Origin: a virus
IMG/VR virus record: IMGVR_UViG_3300006038_000006
Span: 1 to 33,593 of that record
DNA: 33,593 bases
Strand: one strand, 5' to 3'
Shown here: positions 7,103 to 28,783 of the stretch, piece after piece
Numbering within the stretch: the stretch's first letter is position 1
Layout of the letters: the number at the start of each line of letters is the position of its first letter
Translations under genes and position numbers: made by a program
Notes under the pieces: generated by a model
What the model saw: only the letters and a program-made list of their open reading frames with translations
Databases searched by the model: none
What the model was told of the DNA's origin: nothing

Positions 7103-7155
7103 GCGCGAAATTATCGCGCGCGCGCGAGCCTGATCAGGCCCGCCGTGGTGGGCGG
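7103..7155 (-). promoter_or_regulatory. Intergenic hairpin plus alternating CG tract (candidate leader or terminator)
   Basis: The 54-base gap holds a short hairpin (CCGCC, 6-base loop, GGCGG), a palindrome GCCTGATCAGGC and the tract CGCGCGCGCG followed by an AATTTCG motif. The hairpin end GGCGGGCCTGAT also occurs at 12606-12633 and 28388-28411. The CG tract with AATTTCG recurs at 12576-12600. No T tract follows, so termination is doubtful. A regulatory or mRNA-structure role is an inference from the repetition. Confidence 0.35.
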
Positions 7156-8867: not shown

Positions 8868-10111
8868 TAGTTGCGCTCCAGAAACTCGATATCGCCGGCA
8901 GGCAGTTGCGCCGGATGCGATGGATCATTGCGGGCAACAAGGTCGGCATAGACCGCTTCCAGTCGCGCCGGCGTGTCGCCCGACAGGTGCTGTGCGATTA
9001 GCCAAGCGTCGGTATCGCGGCTGACGGAGATGCGTCGGACTGATGGCAGGCGGCCGATGACCTCGTTAAGATCGGAGACGATCGCAGCTGTCAGAGATCG
9101 CGCGGCCGAGGACAGCGCCGAACTGGCGGCCTGCATCGTATTGGGTGCTTGCTGCTCGACCTGGTCAACAAGGGAGGCGAGCGCCGAGGTCATGGAAGAT
9201 CGGTAGCGGAGCGCCTCCTGTCGGGACACGAAATCTGCATACGACGACTGCTCCGCCGACGCGGCTATGAACTGGCCGGCAGCACCTGCCAGCAACAGGG
9301 CGTCAATCGCGGACGGCGCTTTTCCCGCTTCTGTTAGCAAGCCCGTTGCGATGGAAAGGCCGGCGCTCATCAGCGCCTGGGCGCTTGGCGTCGAGGGGAG
9401 AAACGTGGTCGCAGGGGCGACAGCCGGAATCTCAATCGTCTGCGCAATGACCGACGCGGCCGAACTGACCCACGTATCGAATGCTACGGGTGAGGACGGC
9501 GACGATGCCGCGAGCGCCAAGCGTATCTGGCTGACGGCCGAGCGGGCATCCGGACGCGCGGTAATGGCATCTGCCACCGATGCTACGACGCGCCGACTGC
9601 GGATCGTCGCAGACGTGCGGGCGCTGGAAATAACGGTCAGCGTGATCGAGGCGGCAAGCGAAGTCAGGGCGCTTGTGAAGCGTGAGAGGGCCGAAGGCAA
9701 CAGTCCACCGGCGAAACCAGATATCGACGACGACGGCGCGCGCTTGAACCGGGCTGAAACCCGGAATACCCGCAGTTCCCGTTCCGAGAAGCGGATTTGA
9801 GCCGGTTCCTCCATGATGACCTGCATCGGGCCGAGCCATGGATGAATGAGAAGCGCCGGCCCCGGTGTCTCAAAGGCCTTGGACAGTAGCTTCGCCCGGA
9901 CACGATAGTCGTCACCGACATAAAGCGCTTCGATACTGATACCGGATGGACCAACGCCGAAATCGTCATAGGCAGCTGGATCGACACCCGGAAACAGATA
10001 TTCGAGCACCCGCCGTCCGTGGTCGCTCGACACATCGACGATGGAAATCGGAATGCCACGGAAAACACCCGGCAATAGTCCTTCAGCGGAATTGAGACTG
10101 TCGAGCAGCAT
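8867..10111 (-). CDS. Mu gp43-like (gpN) DNA circularisation N-terminal domain protein, 414 aa
   Basis: The N-terminal 120 residues match the family historically called DNA circularisation protein N: RGIPISIVDVSSDHGRRVLE, YLFPGVDPAAYDDFG and PGPALLIHPWLGPMQVIM. In contractile phages this is actually a baseplate component near the hub. The remainder is Ala/Ser/Arg-rich helical sequence. It is coupled to the tape measure gene by TGATG at 10111 and to gp44 by TAATG. I take the structural role from synteny, because the family name is misleading. Confidence 0.9.
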   Translation of the reverse strand: MLLDSLNSAEGLLPGVFRGIPISIVDVSSDHGRRVLEYLFPGVDPAAYDDFGVGPSGISIEALYVGDDYRVRAKLLSKAFETPGPALLIHPWLGPMQVIMEEPAQIRFSERELRVFRVSARFKRAPSSSISGFAGGLLPSALSRFTSALTSLAASITLTVISSARTSATIRSRRVVASVADAITARPDARSAVSQIRLALAASSPSSPVAFDTWVSSAASVIAQTIEIPAVAPATTFLPSTPSAQALMSAGLSIATGLLTEAGKAPSAIDALLLAGAAGQFIAASAEQSSYADFVSRQEALRYRSSMTSALASLVDQVEQQAPNTMQAASSALSSAARSLTAAIVSDLNEVIGRLPSVRRISVSRDTDAWLIAQHLSGDTPARLEAVYADLVARNDPSHPAQLPAGDIEFLERN

Positions 10112-12552
10112 CAGTCCCTCCCGACAGCACGGCCGGTGTTGACGGTCGGCGACGGCGACGTGACGGTGGTTGTCTGGCCGACAACCTTGCCGGGGCCTTC
10201 GACAACAACCTTAGCTTCGGTGTTTACATTGAGCTGCTGCGGCGCGGCCGGTGCAGTCGGCGAAGCCTGTGCCGGGAGGACACCATTCTGGTTGGCTGGC
10301 AGTACGCTATTGCGCCCGATCGTGGTCATATTGCGCTGGCCGGTGACACCGAGCGCGTTGGAAACGCTTTCGATGCTAAGGGCTGCTTTCACGCGCTCAA
10401 GCGCCGACGCAACACTGTTCCAGGCCTCCGCGACGCCATCCGGCATCAACGCGCCCCAATTGATACCACGGTTGATGGCTTCGACTAGGGACGCAATCCC
10501 TTTCACGACCCACTCGATGGCCTTCGCGAGATCTTCAAGGATCATAACAGCCGCTAGAACCGTTTGGCCGCCAAGGTCGCCGAGAAGTTTCATGACACCG
10601 GTAAACATGCCGGACATCTTGCCGCCTTCGCCCAGGCCGACGAGTTCCCGGATGGCAGCTCCGAGCCGCATGAAGCCGGTCGCAATGCCTGCAATCGATC
10701 TGACTGCGCCACCGGCCGCCTTGCCGATCGGCTCCAGCCATGGTGCAAATCCCGAGCCGAATTCCTTCATGCCCTGCCATGCCCTGGCAATGCCGCTCAA
10801 TGCGATATCGAGACCACGGAAAGCGACAAGCTTGGCATCATCGATCGTCAGGCCGGAGAGATCGATTTTGAGATCGAGGCCTTCGGCAAAACCGGACAAC
10901 AGCTTCTTTAGGTTCTGCCACCCTGCCGCCACGTCGTCGAGCGCAGCCCCGAGACCGGCGCGAATAATGGGACCGTAACGCCCCGCCAAGTCGCGGGCAA
11001 CGCCCATGACCTGGTTACCTATATTGCGCAGGTGTGGAACCGCTGCGGCCGCTTTCTGGCGGATCGTTCCCCAAGCATCGCCAAGCCGGTCCCACATGCG
11101 AGACAGACGAGGAGCGTAACTTGACCAGTTACGATAGATGTAGACGCCCGCCGCAGCGATGCCCGCCAGCGCAATACCCACGGGGCTGAAAAGAGCCGCC
11201 AGAACCGACAGGCCCGCGCCGATCGCAGGCAACACCACGCCCAGGACACCGAGACCGGCTGCGGCAAGGACAGCCACACCTGCAAAGGCGAGGCCCTGCT
11301 TAACCATGCCGCCTGTCGCAGTGTCCAGCTCGCGCAACCATTTGAGGGCATCCATCAGGTAGCCGTTGATCGCAGGCATCCAGGTGCCGAAAGCGAGGCC
11401 GACCTCACGCGACGCCTGCGTGCCGATTTCGCGGAAGGTTGTGAGCTGGCGATTGAGGCCCATCATCTGGGTTTCGAAGTCGGCATCGATCGCGCTGCCC
11501 GTCGCCTTGGCGACTTCATCCTTTATCGACTTGTATTCGTCGATGTTGCCGAGCATGGGGATCAGGAAATCCATCACCTGCATGTCGGAGAACAGTTCGC
11601 CGAGCTTGCCTGCGCCATAAATCTTTTCGAGCTGCTCGCGCACGGTTGCCAGCGCATCCGCGTCCGACATGCCGGCAGCTTTCGCCTTGCCCATCAGCCC
11701 CTGAATTTCCTTGCTCGAAACGCCGGTCAGCTTGGTGATCTTCTGGACAACGGTTTCAATCGGGTTGATGCCCTTCGTCACGGCGTCCTGCATCACGCCT
11801 TGGATATCGACGCCCATGTCGGCGAAGTTCTTGACCGTGGTCGGGGCAAGCACTTTCGACAGGAAGTTTTTCAGGTTGTTGGCAGCTTCGGCCGGATCGG
11901 ATGTTCCCTTGCGGGCGATCTGGAGGGCCGCGCCGAGGAAGTTAACGGCCTCACGGCCGGTCACGCCGAACTTCGCCATCTGCCCGGTGAGTGTCGGGAA
12001 ATAGCGTGACATGTCCTTCAGCTCAAAGGAACCGAGCTTACCGGCTGTGACCAGCGCGCCCATGGCATCGTCCAGTTGATCGGCCGGCAGCTTCAGCGTG
12101 GTGAGCAGCGACGTGGCGACTGATGCCATGTCATTCATCTCGGCATTGGCGGCGGTTGCGGCGCGGCTGATCGAACCGATCGAGCGGTCCACCAGGTCGT
12201 TATTAACGCCGGCCGCGATCATCTGTCCCGCGCCTCGGGCGACGGTATCGGAGAGCTGGCCGACATCGAGAGCGAGTTGCTCGAATTTTGCCTTGGACTG
12301 ATCGACGAACGCAAAGGCCGCCTGTCCCGTCAGGTTTGACGTTCCGGCTATGTCGATCAGTTGCTGCTGGAAGGCTGCGGCCTCCTGCATTGGGCCGAGG
12401 AAGGAAATGCCGGCAACCGCCGCGCCGACGAGACCGATCTTGCGGGCGGTATTGGCTATGCCATCAAGCGCACCTTTAACGCCACGCAAAGGCCCGCTTA
12501 AAAGGTCCCTGAGACGGACGATGACATCAAGGTTCATGTTCCGGCTGGCCAT
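10111..12552 (-). CDS. Tail tape measure protein (Mu gp42-like), 813 aa
   Basis: This sets tail length and is carried inside the tube. It starts with a DVIVRLRDLLSGPLRGVKGA region. Helices rich in Ala/Gly then include the tape-measure core with ISRAATAANAEMNDMASVAT and GQMAKFGVTGREAVNFLGAA near residues 130-210. Residues about 415-475 form a long hydrophobic stretch (VAVLAAAGLGVLGVVLPAIG and following), probably two or three membrane-inserting helices used in DNA entry. The C-terminus is Pro/Gln/Thr-rich. The gene follows the strongest hairpin terminator of the window and starts with a GGGGCGGATC sequence near the ATG. Confidence 0.93.
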   Translation of the reverse strand: MASRNMNLDVIVRLRDLLSGPLRGVKGALDGIANTARKIGLVGAAVAGISFLGPMQEAAAFQQQLIDIAGTSNLTGQAAFAFVDQSKAKFEQLALDVGQLSDTVARGAGQMIAAGVNNDLVDRSIGSISRAATAANAEMNDMASVATSLLTTLKLPADQLDDAMGALVTAGKLGSFELKDMSRYFPTLTGQMAKFGVTGREAVNFLGAALQIARKGTSDPAEAANNLKNFLSKVLAPTTVKNFADMGVDIQGVMQDAVTKGINPIETVVQKITKLTGVSSKEIQGLMGKAKAAGMSDADALATVREQLEKIYGAGKLGELFSDMQVMDFLIPMLGNIDEYKSIKDEVAKATGSAIDADFETQMMGLNRQLTTFREIGTQASREVGLAFGTWMPAINGYLMDALKWLRELDTATGGMVKQGLAFAGVAVLAAAGLGVLGVVLPAIGAGLSVLAALFSPVGIALAGIAAAGVYIYRNWSSYAPRLSRMWDRLGDAWGTIRQKAAAAVPHLRNIGNQVMGVARDLAGRYGPIIRAGLGAALDDVAAGWQNLKKLLSGFAEGLDLKIDLSGLTIDDAKLVAFRGLDIALSGIARAWQGMKEFGSGFAPWLEPIGKAAGGAVRSIAGIATGFMRLGAAIRELVGLGEGGKMSGMFTGVMKLLGDLGGQTVLAAVMILEDLAKAIEWVVKGIASLVEAINRGINWGALMPDGVAEAWNSVASALERVKAALSIESVSNALGVTGQRNMTTIGRNSVLPANQNGVLPAQASPTAPAAPQQLNVNTEAKVVVEGPGKVVGQTTTVTSPSPTVNTGRAVGRD

Positions 12553-12599
12553 GATCCGCCCCGCTTGAGAATAAAGCCGAAATTCTCACGCGCGCGCAA

Positions 12600-12633
12600 A
12601 AAAGGTCAGGCCCGCCGTTACGGGCGGGCCTGA
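12600..12633 (-). terminator. Rho-independent terminator after chaperone gene
   Basis: On the minus strand an 11-bp perfect stem (TCAGGCCCGCC and GGCGGGCCTGA) with loop CGTAAC is followed by CCTTTTTT. It begins at the base after the stop of the frameshifted chaperone frame and lies 48 bases before the tape measure start. It probably lowers read-through between these genes. The stem belongs to the hairpin family seen also at 28388-28411 and partly at 7128-7155. Confidence 0.75.
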
Positions 12634-12795
12634 TTAAATCTTCGAGATATCGTTTACGTGCTTACGATAGGCCATGATGCAGTTCCACCAGAAGAGAACC
12701 GTGTCGATCGTCATGGTCTCAATCTCGGTGGCGGCGAAGCTGGAGCCGTCAGCGAGGCCGCCGAGTTTTATCGGCCAGTCTTCGGGCCACTCGTC
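12634..12795 (-). CDS. Minus-1 frame extension of the tail assembly chaperone (gp41' equivalent), 53 aa
   Basis: This frame has no start codon of its own but stays open from the slippery site at 12801-12795 to a TAA at 12636-12634. It encodes DEWPEDWPIKLGGLADGSSF and later TIDTVLFWWNCIMAYRK. A Trp-rich amphipathic C-terminus of this kind is usual for the long form of tail assembly chaperones (gpGT of lambda, gpE+E' of P2). Joined by a -1 shift to the first 147 codons of 13235-12768, it would give a protein of 200 residues. No part is covered by another gene, and it fills what would otherwise be an unexplained gap of over 200 bases. Confidence 0.85.
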   Translation of the reverse strand, partial: DEWPEDWPIKLGGLADGSSFAATEIETMTIDTVLFWWNCIMAYRKHVNDISKI

Positions 12796-13235
12796 AAAAA
12801 AGTTTCGATAATCCGGCCGCCGTCCGCGATATCAACACCGTCCATCTTATCGAAAAGCTTGTCCATCACCATTTCGGAAATCCGGGTCGAGCGCGAAAAC
12901 GTCACGATCGATGCCTTCGCGTCGCTGGTCGCCTGGATGGCGCGCAGATCAGCTCCGTTGAAGCGATGGAAGACCAGCTCCGTGAAAACCCGCTCCCGGA
13001 CATTGCCGTCCTTCTTGGTGGTGAGCGTGACTTTCTCAAAGAGCGGAAGCGTCACCGAGCCGTTAGCGTTCGGACGCGCACGTTTCGGCAGCTTGGAATC
13101 GGCCTTCGCATCTTCATCAATGATGTCGTCGGTAGCGTCTGCGCCGGCGTCTTCGTTGATTACGGTTTCGGCGCTTGAAACGACTTCGTCGTTCGGCGCG
13201 TCTTCGTCGATATCGACCCTCAGTGTAGTACCCAT
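12768..13235 (-). CDS. Tail assembly chaperone, short form (Mu gp41-like), 155 aa
   Basis: This occupies the Mu gp41 position between tail tube and tape measure. The N-terminal 55 residues are very acidic (NDEVVSSAETVINEDAGADA). They are followed by a VTLPLFEKVTLTTKKDG strand region and helices with FHRFNGADLRAIQAT, as in gp41-type chaperones. These bind the tape measure protein before tube assembly. The ATG at 13235 overlaps the tube stop as TGATG and is preferred to the Arg-rich upstream extension. The last eight codons lie beyond a slippery heptamer, so this is the non-shifted product. Confidence 0.88.
   Translation of the reverse strand: MGTTLRVDIDEDAPNDEVVSSAETVINEDAGADATDDIIDEDAKADSKLPKRARPNANGSVTLPLFEKVTLTTKKDGNVRERVFTELVFHRFNGADLRAIQATSDAKASIVTFSRSTRISEMVMDKLFDKMDGVDIADGGRIIETFLTSGPKTGR
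12795..12801 (-). promoter_or_regulatory. Programmed -1 frameshift site T_TTT_TTG
   Basis: In the chaperone frame, the codons ACT TTT TTG contain the heptamer T TTT TTG in the exact phase X XXY YYZ needed for dual tRNA slippage. After a -1 shift the next codon is GAC at 12795, opening the 53-codon frame. It lies nine codons before the zero-frame TAA. Conserved frameshifts at this gene are established for tailed phages. The efficiency is unknown, and no strong downstream hairpin was obvious to me. Confidence 0.85.
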
Positions 13236-13597
13236 CAGAGAATTTCCTCGGGCGATCCGCCAGCCCACTTGAGTTCGATTTTTCCGCCTTCGCCGCCCGT
13301 CACGTCGGGAATGTCGCCCTCAAGGAAGGCGTCATTCAAGACGTATGTCTGGCCGGTGTCGCAGACGATCTGCAACTCTCCCTCACCGGGATCGAGCAGG
13401 TTGCCCAGGCGCTGCCCCCTTTCGAGGTGGGTTGTCGCCGTGACCTGTGACCCCTGATACTCCTGGGCGCGGCCGACGCCTCGGCCATAGGTCACGGCGT
13501 TGTTCTTGATACCGCCCTTGCGGAATTTCGCCCCCTTCTCGACGGGGATGTTACGCCCCCTCCAGACGATATCGACGATGCCCAATACCTGTGTCAT
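13235..13597 (-). CDS. Tail tube protein (Mu gpM, gp40-like), 120 aa
   Basis: This forms the inner tail tube. The size and the GIVDIVWRGRNIPVEKGAKF start, followed by GRGVGRAQEYQGSQVTATT, fit the Mu/P2-like FII-type tube subunit. It follows the sheath with a 15-base gap holding AGGAG (TTTAACAGGAGCTTTAAGCG before the ATG). The gene order sheath, tube, chaperone, tape measure is the standard contractile-tail order. Confidence 0.9.
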   Translation of the reverse strand: MTQVLGIVDIVWRGRNIPVEKGAKFRKGGIKNNAVTYGRGVGRAQEYQGSQVTATTHLERGQRLGNLLDPGEGELQIVCDTGQTYVLNDAFLEGDIPDVTGGEGGKIELKWAGGSPEEIL

Positions 13598-13612: not shown

Positions 13613-15100
13613 TTAAACCTGAAATTCGAGACGGCCGGCAAAGACCATGAGATTGCCGACGATGACCACCTGCTGGCGGCTTTCGAGCCTGTTGCGATCG
13701 TCCGTCGAGCGCTGGAAGACGCTTTCCCGGAGCGTGCGCTGCACGTTCTCGATCCAGACCTTTTCGCCGTAGAGCTTGCATCGTGCAGCCCAGGAGCCGG
13801 CCATGCGCTTCGGCGTCACCACGGCCGTGCCGGCGTCCTGGTCATTGTCCTGGCGGGTGGCGAAGGACGCGTCACTGTCGTCATCCACGAGCTTTGAACG
13901 CGGGTACATCAGGTTGATGTAGACCGACCAGTCGTAGCGGATGCGGCTCATGGTGACCGGCACCATGATATCGAGCCATGCACGATCGGCGATGTCGAGC
14001 GTCGTCTTCTTGTAGGTCGTGATCATGCGCGAGATCGTGACCGCACCATCCGACAGGCAGTCGAAGGTGGAAATGCCGTTGCGCAGCAGTAGATCGTTTT
14101 CCTCGTCAAGGAACTGATCCACCTCGGCCGGCGCTTCGACACCCGGCAGAACAAGCGACTTCAACTGGCGGGCCGGGTCGTCGGTCAGGTGGAACGAGGC
14201 GATACCCATTGCCGAGGCGGCCATCGCCCAGGACGGCGTCGGGCTTTTCTTCAGCCCGGCCATGGTGAGGAAAGGCGAGTTGGTCAGATTGCCGAACGTG
14301 GTGAGCTGGCCATAGGTGCCGCCCATGAATACGAAGCCATGGCAATCGAGTTTCGAGGTCGCGAGATAACGCACCCGCAGCCACTCGGCCGTCTTGGCAA
14401 GGTTGGTCGCATCCGACCAGGGGTGCGTGAGCTTGGTTGCCCAGGTGCTGACAAGAAGATCAAGCGCCGGCTGCACGTCCGGGTTTCCCGAACCGCCTGC
14501 CATGGCAACGACAGTGCAGGTCAAACCGGCTGGAAGCGGCTGGGCCTTGGTATCAACGCGCAGATCGATCTCGTTGCCGACTTCACCGCCATGGCGAGAC
14601 GTGACGGTCACGACGCCCGCTGCTGCCGTCGCGGTTACGACCATGTCGAGATCGGCATTGATAGCGGCGGCAAGCTTGGTCGCCAGTGCGGCGACGGCAT
14701 CGCTGGACAGCGCCGTCATCCTCACCTGCCGGCCGCCAATTTTGAAGCGCAAGACAACGGAGCTGGTGGGCGAACCCGCGAAGGTGAAGGTGCCAGTCGC
14801 CTTCAGCGCGCCGCCGGCATCGGGGAGTGCGATCACGTAAAGCGGCGTGTTGCGATTGGCCTTCTTGAAATATGCCACCTGTTCCGCGCCGATCGAGCCA
14901 CGACCAAAGAGCGCAATCGCCTGGTCGGCGCGGGTGATTTCCTGTATCGCGCCGGCCGCAAGCGTGCCGGTGGCAAGCTTCTGGCCAACGATGAAGGCCT
15001 TTTCGGGCCACGGCAGAATGCCGACGTTGCGATAGTTCGGCCCGATCTCGATCAGGGTCGCAGGTTCAAGGCGATCTACGGGGATTTCGTTGAAATCCAT
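13613..15100 (-). CDS. Contractile tail sheath protein (Mu gpL, gp39-like), 495 aa
   Basis: Its size equals Mu gpL (495 aa). The N-terminus IPVDRLEPATLIEIGPNYRN, the AGAIQEITRADQAIALFGRGS region near residues 50-70 and the C-terminal MTTYKKTTLDIADRAWLDIM part are typical of sheath proteins. It contracts around the tube on injection. The ATG at 15100 overlaps the gp38 stop as TAATG. No irregularity is visible. Confidence 0.95.
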   Translation of the reverse strand: MDFNEIPVDRLEPATLIEIGPNYRNVGILPWPEKAFIVGQKLATGTLAAGAIQEITRADQAIALFGRGSIGAEQVAYFKKANRNTPLYVIALPDAGGALKATGTFTFAGSPTSSVVLRFKIGGRQVRMTALSSDAVAALATKLAAAINADLDMVVTATAAAGVVTVTSRHGGEVGNEIDLRVDTKAQPLPAGLTCTVVAMAGGSGNPDVQPALDLLVSTWATKLTHPWSDATNLAKTAEWLRVRYLATSKLDCHGFVFMGGTYGQLTTFGNLTNSPFLTMAGLKKSPTPSWAMAASAMGIASFHLTDDPARQLKSLVLPGVEAPAEVDQFLDEENDLLLRNGISTFDCLSDGAVTISRMITTYKKTTLDIADRAWLDIMVPVTMSRIRYDWSVYINLMYPRSKLVDDDSDASFATRQDNDQDAGTAVVTPKRMAGSWAARCKLYGEKVWIENVQRTLRESVFQRSTDDRNRLESRQQVVIVGNLMVFAGRLEFQV

Positions 15101-28378: not shown

Positions 28379-28411
28379 AAACAAATCAGGCCCGCCGTGG
28401 CGGGCGGGCCT
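28379..28411 (-). terminator. Hairpin terminator after Mor-like gene
   Basis: On the minus strand AGGCCCGCC and GGCGGGCCT form a 9-bp stem with loop CGCCAC, followed by GATTTGTTT. It starts directly after the stop of the Mor-like gene. The stem sequence is almost the same as at 12606-12633. It separates regulatory genes from the lysis and structural operon, where Mu uses an activator to start late transcription. The T tract is moderate. Confidence 0.62.
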
Positions 28412-28783
28412 TTAGAACATTTCAATCTGGCGGGGGTCTGTCTTTCGCCTGGACTTAAGCGGCTCCCGTTTTCGGGCGCGCTTCAAAAGTCTTTCAACAC
28501 CGCTTTCCGTCAAACCGAGACGTTTGGCAATATCGCGGTTGCTCATTTCGGCATCGACATAACGACGGGCGCGAAACTCGCGTGCCAGAGGCACTCTTAT
28601 ATATCCGCCCGGATAGGCTTTGGCTAGACGGTATGCAGCATCAACGCCGATCGTCGAAGGAAGTTCACTTCGCTCGGGATCGGCAGGGACATAGAGCCTG
28701 ACGCCGGCATGTGCTTCGACCAGGGAGAAGAAGCCGTCTTCGCCAAGCGTCGATAGCAGATCAAGGGTGAGATCATCGGCCAC
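28412..28783 (-). CDS. Mor-like transcription activator candidate, 123 aa
   Basis: The layout resembles Mor/C activators of Mu: an N-terminal dimer region with HAGVRLYVPADP (a G-x-x-x-Y-x-P pattern) near residues 25-36. A C-terminal helix-turn-helix, NRDIAKRLGLTESGVERLLK near 82-101, is followed by basic RARKREPLKSRRK. It lies just before the lysis and packaging genes, where Mor or C sits in Mu. It probably activates middle or late transcription. Similarity is partial, so a different HTH regulator is possible. Confidence 0.68.
   Translation of the reverse strand: MADDLTLDLLSTLGEDGFFSLVEAHAGVRLYVPADPERSELPSTIGVDAAYRLAKAYPGGYIRVPLAREFRARRYVDAEMSNRDIAKRLGLTESGVERLLKRARKREPLKSRRKTDPRQIEMF

Follow-up and report, generated by a model that had tools for sequence, protein, structure and literature searches.

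A predicted -1 frameshift at the tail assembly chaperone gene of a Mu-like prophage of rhizobia-type bacteria

Programmed -1 frameshifting, conserved and functional, very probably takes place at the tail assembly chaperone gene of a Mu-like phage represented by a 33.6-kb virus record (IMG/VR IMGVR_UViG_3300006038_000006; 33,593 nucleotides, analysed over its whole length and denoted the window below). Judging from comparisons with related tail modules, it is highly probable that this gene of a contractile-tailed phage encodes a chaperone of the P2 E/lambda G kind, the long form of which is made by -1 slippage. Open reading frame lists show the gene in its short form only; here, the reading is corrected to a short form and a predicted long form.

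The window contains genes for MuB, GemA, Portal_Mu, Mu F, Mu protease and gpT. MuA was found in five of the six close relatives, and the window contig stops short of this gene. Transposition genes (MuA/MuB) together with head and tail genes of the Mu type mark a Mu-like transposable myophage, and the whole element is a Mu-like prophage of rhizobia-type bacteria. The tail genes, all on the minus strand, follow Mu's order, a synteny found in both Mu and P2: sheath (13613..15100; phrog_165 tail sheath, E = 6.7e-137), tube (13235..13597; Tail_tube, E = 1.2e-21), chaperone (12768..13235) and tape measure (10111..12552; PhageMin_Tail, E = 4.9e-21; phrog_794 tape measure, E = 1.9e-59). The sheath, used below for the tail-module tree, is 28.8% identical to that of Mu across its whole length. 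The tube protein is the presumed partner of the extension and the tape measure protein the presumed client of the chaperone, which occupies the slot between their genes that is typical of the G/GT kind. The short form of the chaperone, 155 amino acids in the zero frame, was assigned by its position and by a weak match to Phage_TAC_7 that is clear in relatives; it also matches phrog_25559 (E = 2.8e-35), which has no assigned function. Elsewhere in the window (28412-28783, minus strand), a small protein with matches to sigma-70 region 4 and helix-turn-helix profiles (E = 5e-7) is possibly a late-gene regulator.

The slippery heptamer T_TTT_TTG (12801-12795, minus strand) is in the X_XXY_YYZ phase of the ATG-initiated reading frame starting at 13235. 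The zero-frame stop (12770-12768), which yields the 155-amino acid product, lies 31 nt after the heptamer. After the slip, the -1 frame reads DEWPEDWP...NDISKI through 53 codons and a stop at 12636-12634 (extension 12634..12794, minus strand), giving a fusion of 147 + 53 = 200 amino acids. On recheck, the heptamer in slip phase, the 53 open codons and the 200 versus 155 residues of the original prediction all proved exact. Within the 215 nt between the zero-frame stop and the tape measure start (12552), the extension occupies 12634-12767, and the remainder contains a terminator-like hairpin (12633-12606).

As a check on chance, in-phase XXXYYYZ heptamers were counted in 17 large open reading frames of the window; because 13 occur there, the motif alone proves little. 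The chaperone heptamer is the sole T6 heptamer among the 13, and no other combines a stop within 50 nt with a long -1 frame. This phage makes little use of the heptamer's codons: TTT occurs 63 times versus 147 for TTC, TTG accounts for 62 of the 517 Leu codons, and 18% of all codons end in T. The site rises above chance because it is conserved in relatives fetched without regard to the motif and because the -1 frame is under selection.

Conservation in close relatives, proposed as a check when the frameshift was predicted, was observed throughout: the heptamer, the 31-nt spacing and the open 53-codon extension are identical in all nine complete close viral relatives, one of which (L004) is near-identical to the window at the chaperone locus. 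A wider search, with the fused protein rather than the slip site as the query, identified prophages in Agrobacterium, Rhizobium, Shinella, Brucella, Ancylobacter and an Ahrensia MAG, along with one further viral contig. The 11 intact copies carry T_TTT_TTG (seven), T_TTT_TTC (three) or A_AAT_TTT (one, L029) and extensions of 51-56 codons; L020 is 81% identical and the remaining ones 42-50%. The L029 heptamer, although different, is of the same class, keeping tandem tRNA re-pairing with a T run reduced to five. Thus, an in-phase X_XXY_YYZ heptamer near the 3' end of the gene, a mark of the G/GT kind, is conserved in relatives. The chaperone copy in a Brucella prophage (L021:4989-5600) is decayed, with a premature stop and the extension split across frames; its heptamer is apparently altered, the frames implying C_TTT_TTG, so that frame and heptamer were lost together. 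In INPHARED, no relative of the chaperone was found by tblastn.

Purifying selection acts on the extension in the -1 frame alone. Past the zero-frame stop, pooling over close relatives gives a pN/pS of 0.34 for the -1 frame versus 1.30 and 1.56 for the remaining frames, compared with 0.17 for the zero-frame part upstream. An open -1 frame under protein-coding selection, another mark of the G/GT kind, is therefore present, and conservation of residues in relatives starts immediately past the heptamer. AF2 confidently models the extension as a three-helix fold (pLDDT 94), and its profile matches the extensions of other -1 chaperones. In the model of the short form (pLDDT 73), four helices come after a beta hairpin, and the N terminus, which is acidic and probably disordered, is of low confidence. 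Structure searches with these models (both against BFVD, the short form also against PDB) returned nothing below E = 0.001. The conserved site and the selection on the -1 frame strongly support the original claim of a -1 frameshift that would produce a long chaperone.

The gene had also been described as gp41-like, which holds by position and fails by sequence. The Gp41_Mu family (PF23746), which matches Mu-type chaperones at E of about 1e-35 to 1e-40 (Mu, B23 and martha at 1e-34 or better), gave no match to the window protein at E up to 1. Nor was GGGGGCGA found at the window chaperone, the extension of which is in the -1 frame; the window thus lacks both marks of the Mu gp41 family, the Pfam match and the GGGGGCGA site with a -2-frame extension. 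Relationship to gp41 by sequence was accordingly rejected, the protein grouping instead on the side of Phage_TAC_7 and P2 E. The window protein itself scores 15.9 bits against Phage_TAC_7 (PF10109), below the cut-off of 25, and 11 of the 21 members of an alignment that includes three broader -1 chaperones match this family at E <= 0.01 (best 3.3e-10). In profile comparisons, the window group matched the broad -1 group (98%, E = 7e-15; extensions, 98%, E = 8e-15), and the broad -1 group matched P2 E (96%) and P2 E' (97%); P2 E compared directly with the narrow window profile gave no significant match. The T_TTT_TTG -1 site characteristic of the P2 E/E+E' group is present in both the window and P2. 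By way of these intermediates, the window chaperone would be a member of the P2 E/E+E' (Phage_TAC_7) group.

To survey slip direction, 80 viral contigs fetched by sheath similarity, without regard to the slip site, were pooled with annotated phages and prophages, and a single rule set, demanding phase and an open extension, was applied to all modules. The 107 modules with Mu-type sheaths comprised 44 with T_TTT_TTN and a -1 extension, 26 with GGGGGCG and a -2 extension, 16 with other heptamers and 21 without a call, the latter including some truncated contigs; these numbers are indicative, given that the rules themselves presuppose phase and an open extension, that near-copies occur among the contigs and that a few T6 calls are 88-109 nt upstream of the stop. 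No module combined the T_TTT_TTN -1 and GGGGGCG -2 sites (0 of 107). The -2 set includes Mu, D108, SfMu, martha 12B12, MuM16-2, B23, Vibrio 1.028.O, Pmp9 and Kp4866-3. As an indication, then, -1 is the commoner state among modules with Mu-type sheaths. MuA is carried by records of both directions, -1 (YPCBV-1, L058, L059, L060 and L063) and -2 (B23, martha, L109 and L119). A MuA match is absent in five -1 contigs (L083, L100, L114, L116 and L127), and therefore not all -1 modules belong to transposable phages. Heptamers of the G_GGT_TTT type replace T6 in other modules with Mu-type sheaths (L093, L099 and Komagataeibacter phage phiKM1, L052:4920-4926), and a predicted site resembling these has been described in Burkholderia phage PhiE067 (PMC7266877). 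For KS10, reported to lack a frameshift (PMC2628397), the survey found no frameshift site.

In the sheath tree, all -2 rows except L086 fall in one clade (SH-aLRT 99), which also includes four -1 rows (L083, L110, YPCBV-1 and L116); the tree requires no fewer than five changes of direction. The hypothesis that all -2 rows form a single group was rejected (AU p = 2e-6; thinned set of 58 rows). The window lies far from the -2 clade, among -1 relatives, and the -2 state is likely derived, on a tree without a known root. In an all-against-all comparison, the short forms of the chaperones form two sequence groups that coincide with slip direction: there were 899 hits within -1, 650 within -2 (every ordered pair) and two between. 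Pfam searches with six examples assigned the three -2 chaperones to Gp41_Mu and the three -1 chaperones to Phage_TAC_7 alone, and the sheath sisters L083 (-1) and L089 (-2) have chaperones from different groups. By these sequence comparisons, site type tracks the family of the chaperone and departs from the sheath tree, and so direction seems to have changed by swapping of the chaperone gene together with its extension, which is the simplest reading. On balance, we lean towards the view that, in modules with Mu-type sheaths, direction is a property of the chaperone family, switched by exchange of the gene and its extension, with -2 slippage confined to the Gp41_Mu family. The original prediction held that a plain -1 site in a Mu relative would prove that the mechanism had changed within Mu-like phages; the occurrence of both directions among MuA carriers agrees with this, but the -1 state is the more frequent one, and direction changes with the gene family, not through mutation of a slip site.

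It is unlikely that the window site and the Mu -2 site instead belong to a single orthologous gene whose slip site was converted by point mutation. Distant kinship of the two chaperone groups is possible, given that the broad -1 and the -2 profiles compare at 79% for the short form and 54% for the extension, and that Mu gp41 also matches Phage_TAC_7, slightly under the cut-off. However, the near lack of hits between the groups against the hundreds within each, the chaperones of different groups in sister sheath lineages and the lack of any module with both site types argue against a single mutated gene. If direction does travel with the chaperone gene, pairs with related sheaths and opposite slip, such as L083/L089 or YPCBV-1/B23, become natural experiments on whether tail assembly depends on direction or just on how much long form is made per short form. 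Mu's two-base slip looks like the special case, and the pattern suggests that it is a property of one exchanged gene version among related phages.

In the proposed mechanism, the majority of ribosomes would end at 12768, producing the 155-amino acid short form. In a minority of ribosomes, tRNA-Phe and tRNA-Leu paired with TTT TTG would shift one base backwards to TTT TTT, and translation would continue for another 53 codons, producing the 200-amino acid long form with its added small three-helix domain. The analogy with lambda G/GT would have both forms associate with the tape measure protein and the added domain recruit tube subunits. The comparisons show the site, the open frame, the conservation of both, the selection on the -1 frame and the profile link to the P2 E/E' group through intermediates; the slipping itself, its efficiency and its role in assembly are inferred. 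No conserved stimulatory RNA structure was found 3' of the site, the consensus having four pairs (-3.45 kcal/mol), and single-sequence z-scores in this region are uneven (+0.9 to -3.4). Inspection of the alignment by eye revealed no consistent Shine-Dalgarno-like stimulator upstream.

The long form could also arise through RNA polymerase slippage on the six-T run, from transcripts with one extra base. The site does contain a six-T homopolymer, and bacterial polymerases are known to slip on A/T runs, but the runs tied to it are longer, over 7 for A and over 8 for T (PMC3711429); moreover, the A_AAT_TTT heptamer of L029 cuts the run to five T yet preserves tandem tRNA re-pairing, so we regard this route as very improbable. 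Less probable still is a separate, unfused small gene with its own start, as the extension domains are annotated in D108 (41.5) and YPCBV-1 (YPCBV1_00042): such a gene does not explain the extension because conservation starts right at the heptamer, which a separate gene would not need, and because no usual start codon is nearby (no ATG, GTG or TTG in the -1 frame of the window from the upstream stop at 12834 to Met29 of the extension, a start at which, the earliest, would drop the conserved WPxDW part). In public records, these domains appear as separate hypothetical genes (L045:4731-4916, YPCBV1_00042; L040:4773-4919, D108 gp41.5), probably due to unrecognised frameshifts.

The terminator-like hairpin between the extension stop and the tape measure gene (TCAGGCCCGCC...GGCGGGCCTGA; 12606-12633, minus strand) has an 11-pair stem followed by a T run, and similar copies are present in the window at 7124-7155 and 28384-28411. 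It is kept in close relatives, and L022, L027 and L058 have a hairpin of altered sequence; a GC-rich stem of this kind is absent in most other relatives, many of which have almost no gap there. After the hairpin, a GCGCGCGCGTGAGAATTTC-like element (12579-12597, minus strand) recurs with two mismatches at 7107-7125 (minus strand), beside the hairpin copy near 7124; the chance expectation for this recurrence is 0.04 matches.

The premise of the original prediction, that frameshifts at this gene are well established and that Mu uses a -2 shift, is borne out by the literature: frameshifts in the tail chaperone gene are described as general, with Mu as the -2 case (PMC5009743). The closest parallel is P2 E/E+E', for which TTTTTTG at the chaperone gene, products of 91 and 142 amino acids and no downstream hairpin are reported (PMC3091744). 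As in P2, the window gene occupies the slot before the tape measure gene, with T_TTT_TTG in the same phase and an extension of similar size, and, as reported for P2 (PMC3091744), without a conserved RNA structure found after the site. Unlike the window phage, P2 is not transposable, its short form has 91 rather than 155 amino acids, and the stop of its extension lies across the start of the tape measure gene, where the window has an 80-nt gap with a hairpin. Mu gp41 shares with the window chaperone its gene order and position, homologous sheath and tube, and a frameshift extension of about 50 codons, but Mu uses GGGGGCGA and the other frame, and gp41 belongs to Pfam Gp41_Mu. Lambda G/GT is the established model for a short and a long chaperone made by -1 slipping (PMC5009743); lambda has a siphophage tail, unlike the window phage, and the likeness drawn here is one of described mechanism. 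For Mu-like siphophages of Pseudomonas, a 2014 paper described a putative -1 site, T TTT TTC, and set it against the case of Mu (PMC4378225). These phages, the D3112 group, resemble the window phage in being transposable and in carrying this putative site at the tail assembly genes (PMC4378225), but differ in having flexible siphophage tails and no modules with Mu-type sheaths. In the literature covered, which was incomplete, we found no description of a link between slip direction and chaperone family. The frameshift in the window is thus of a known kind, and the comparative pattern of direction is the useful addition.
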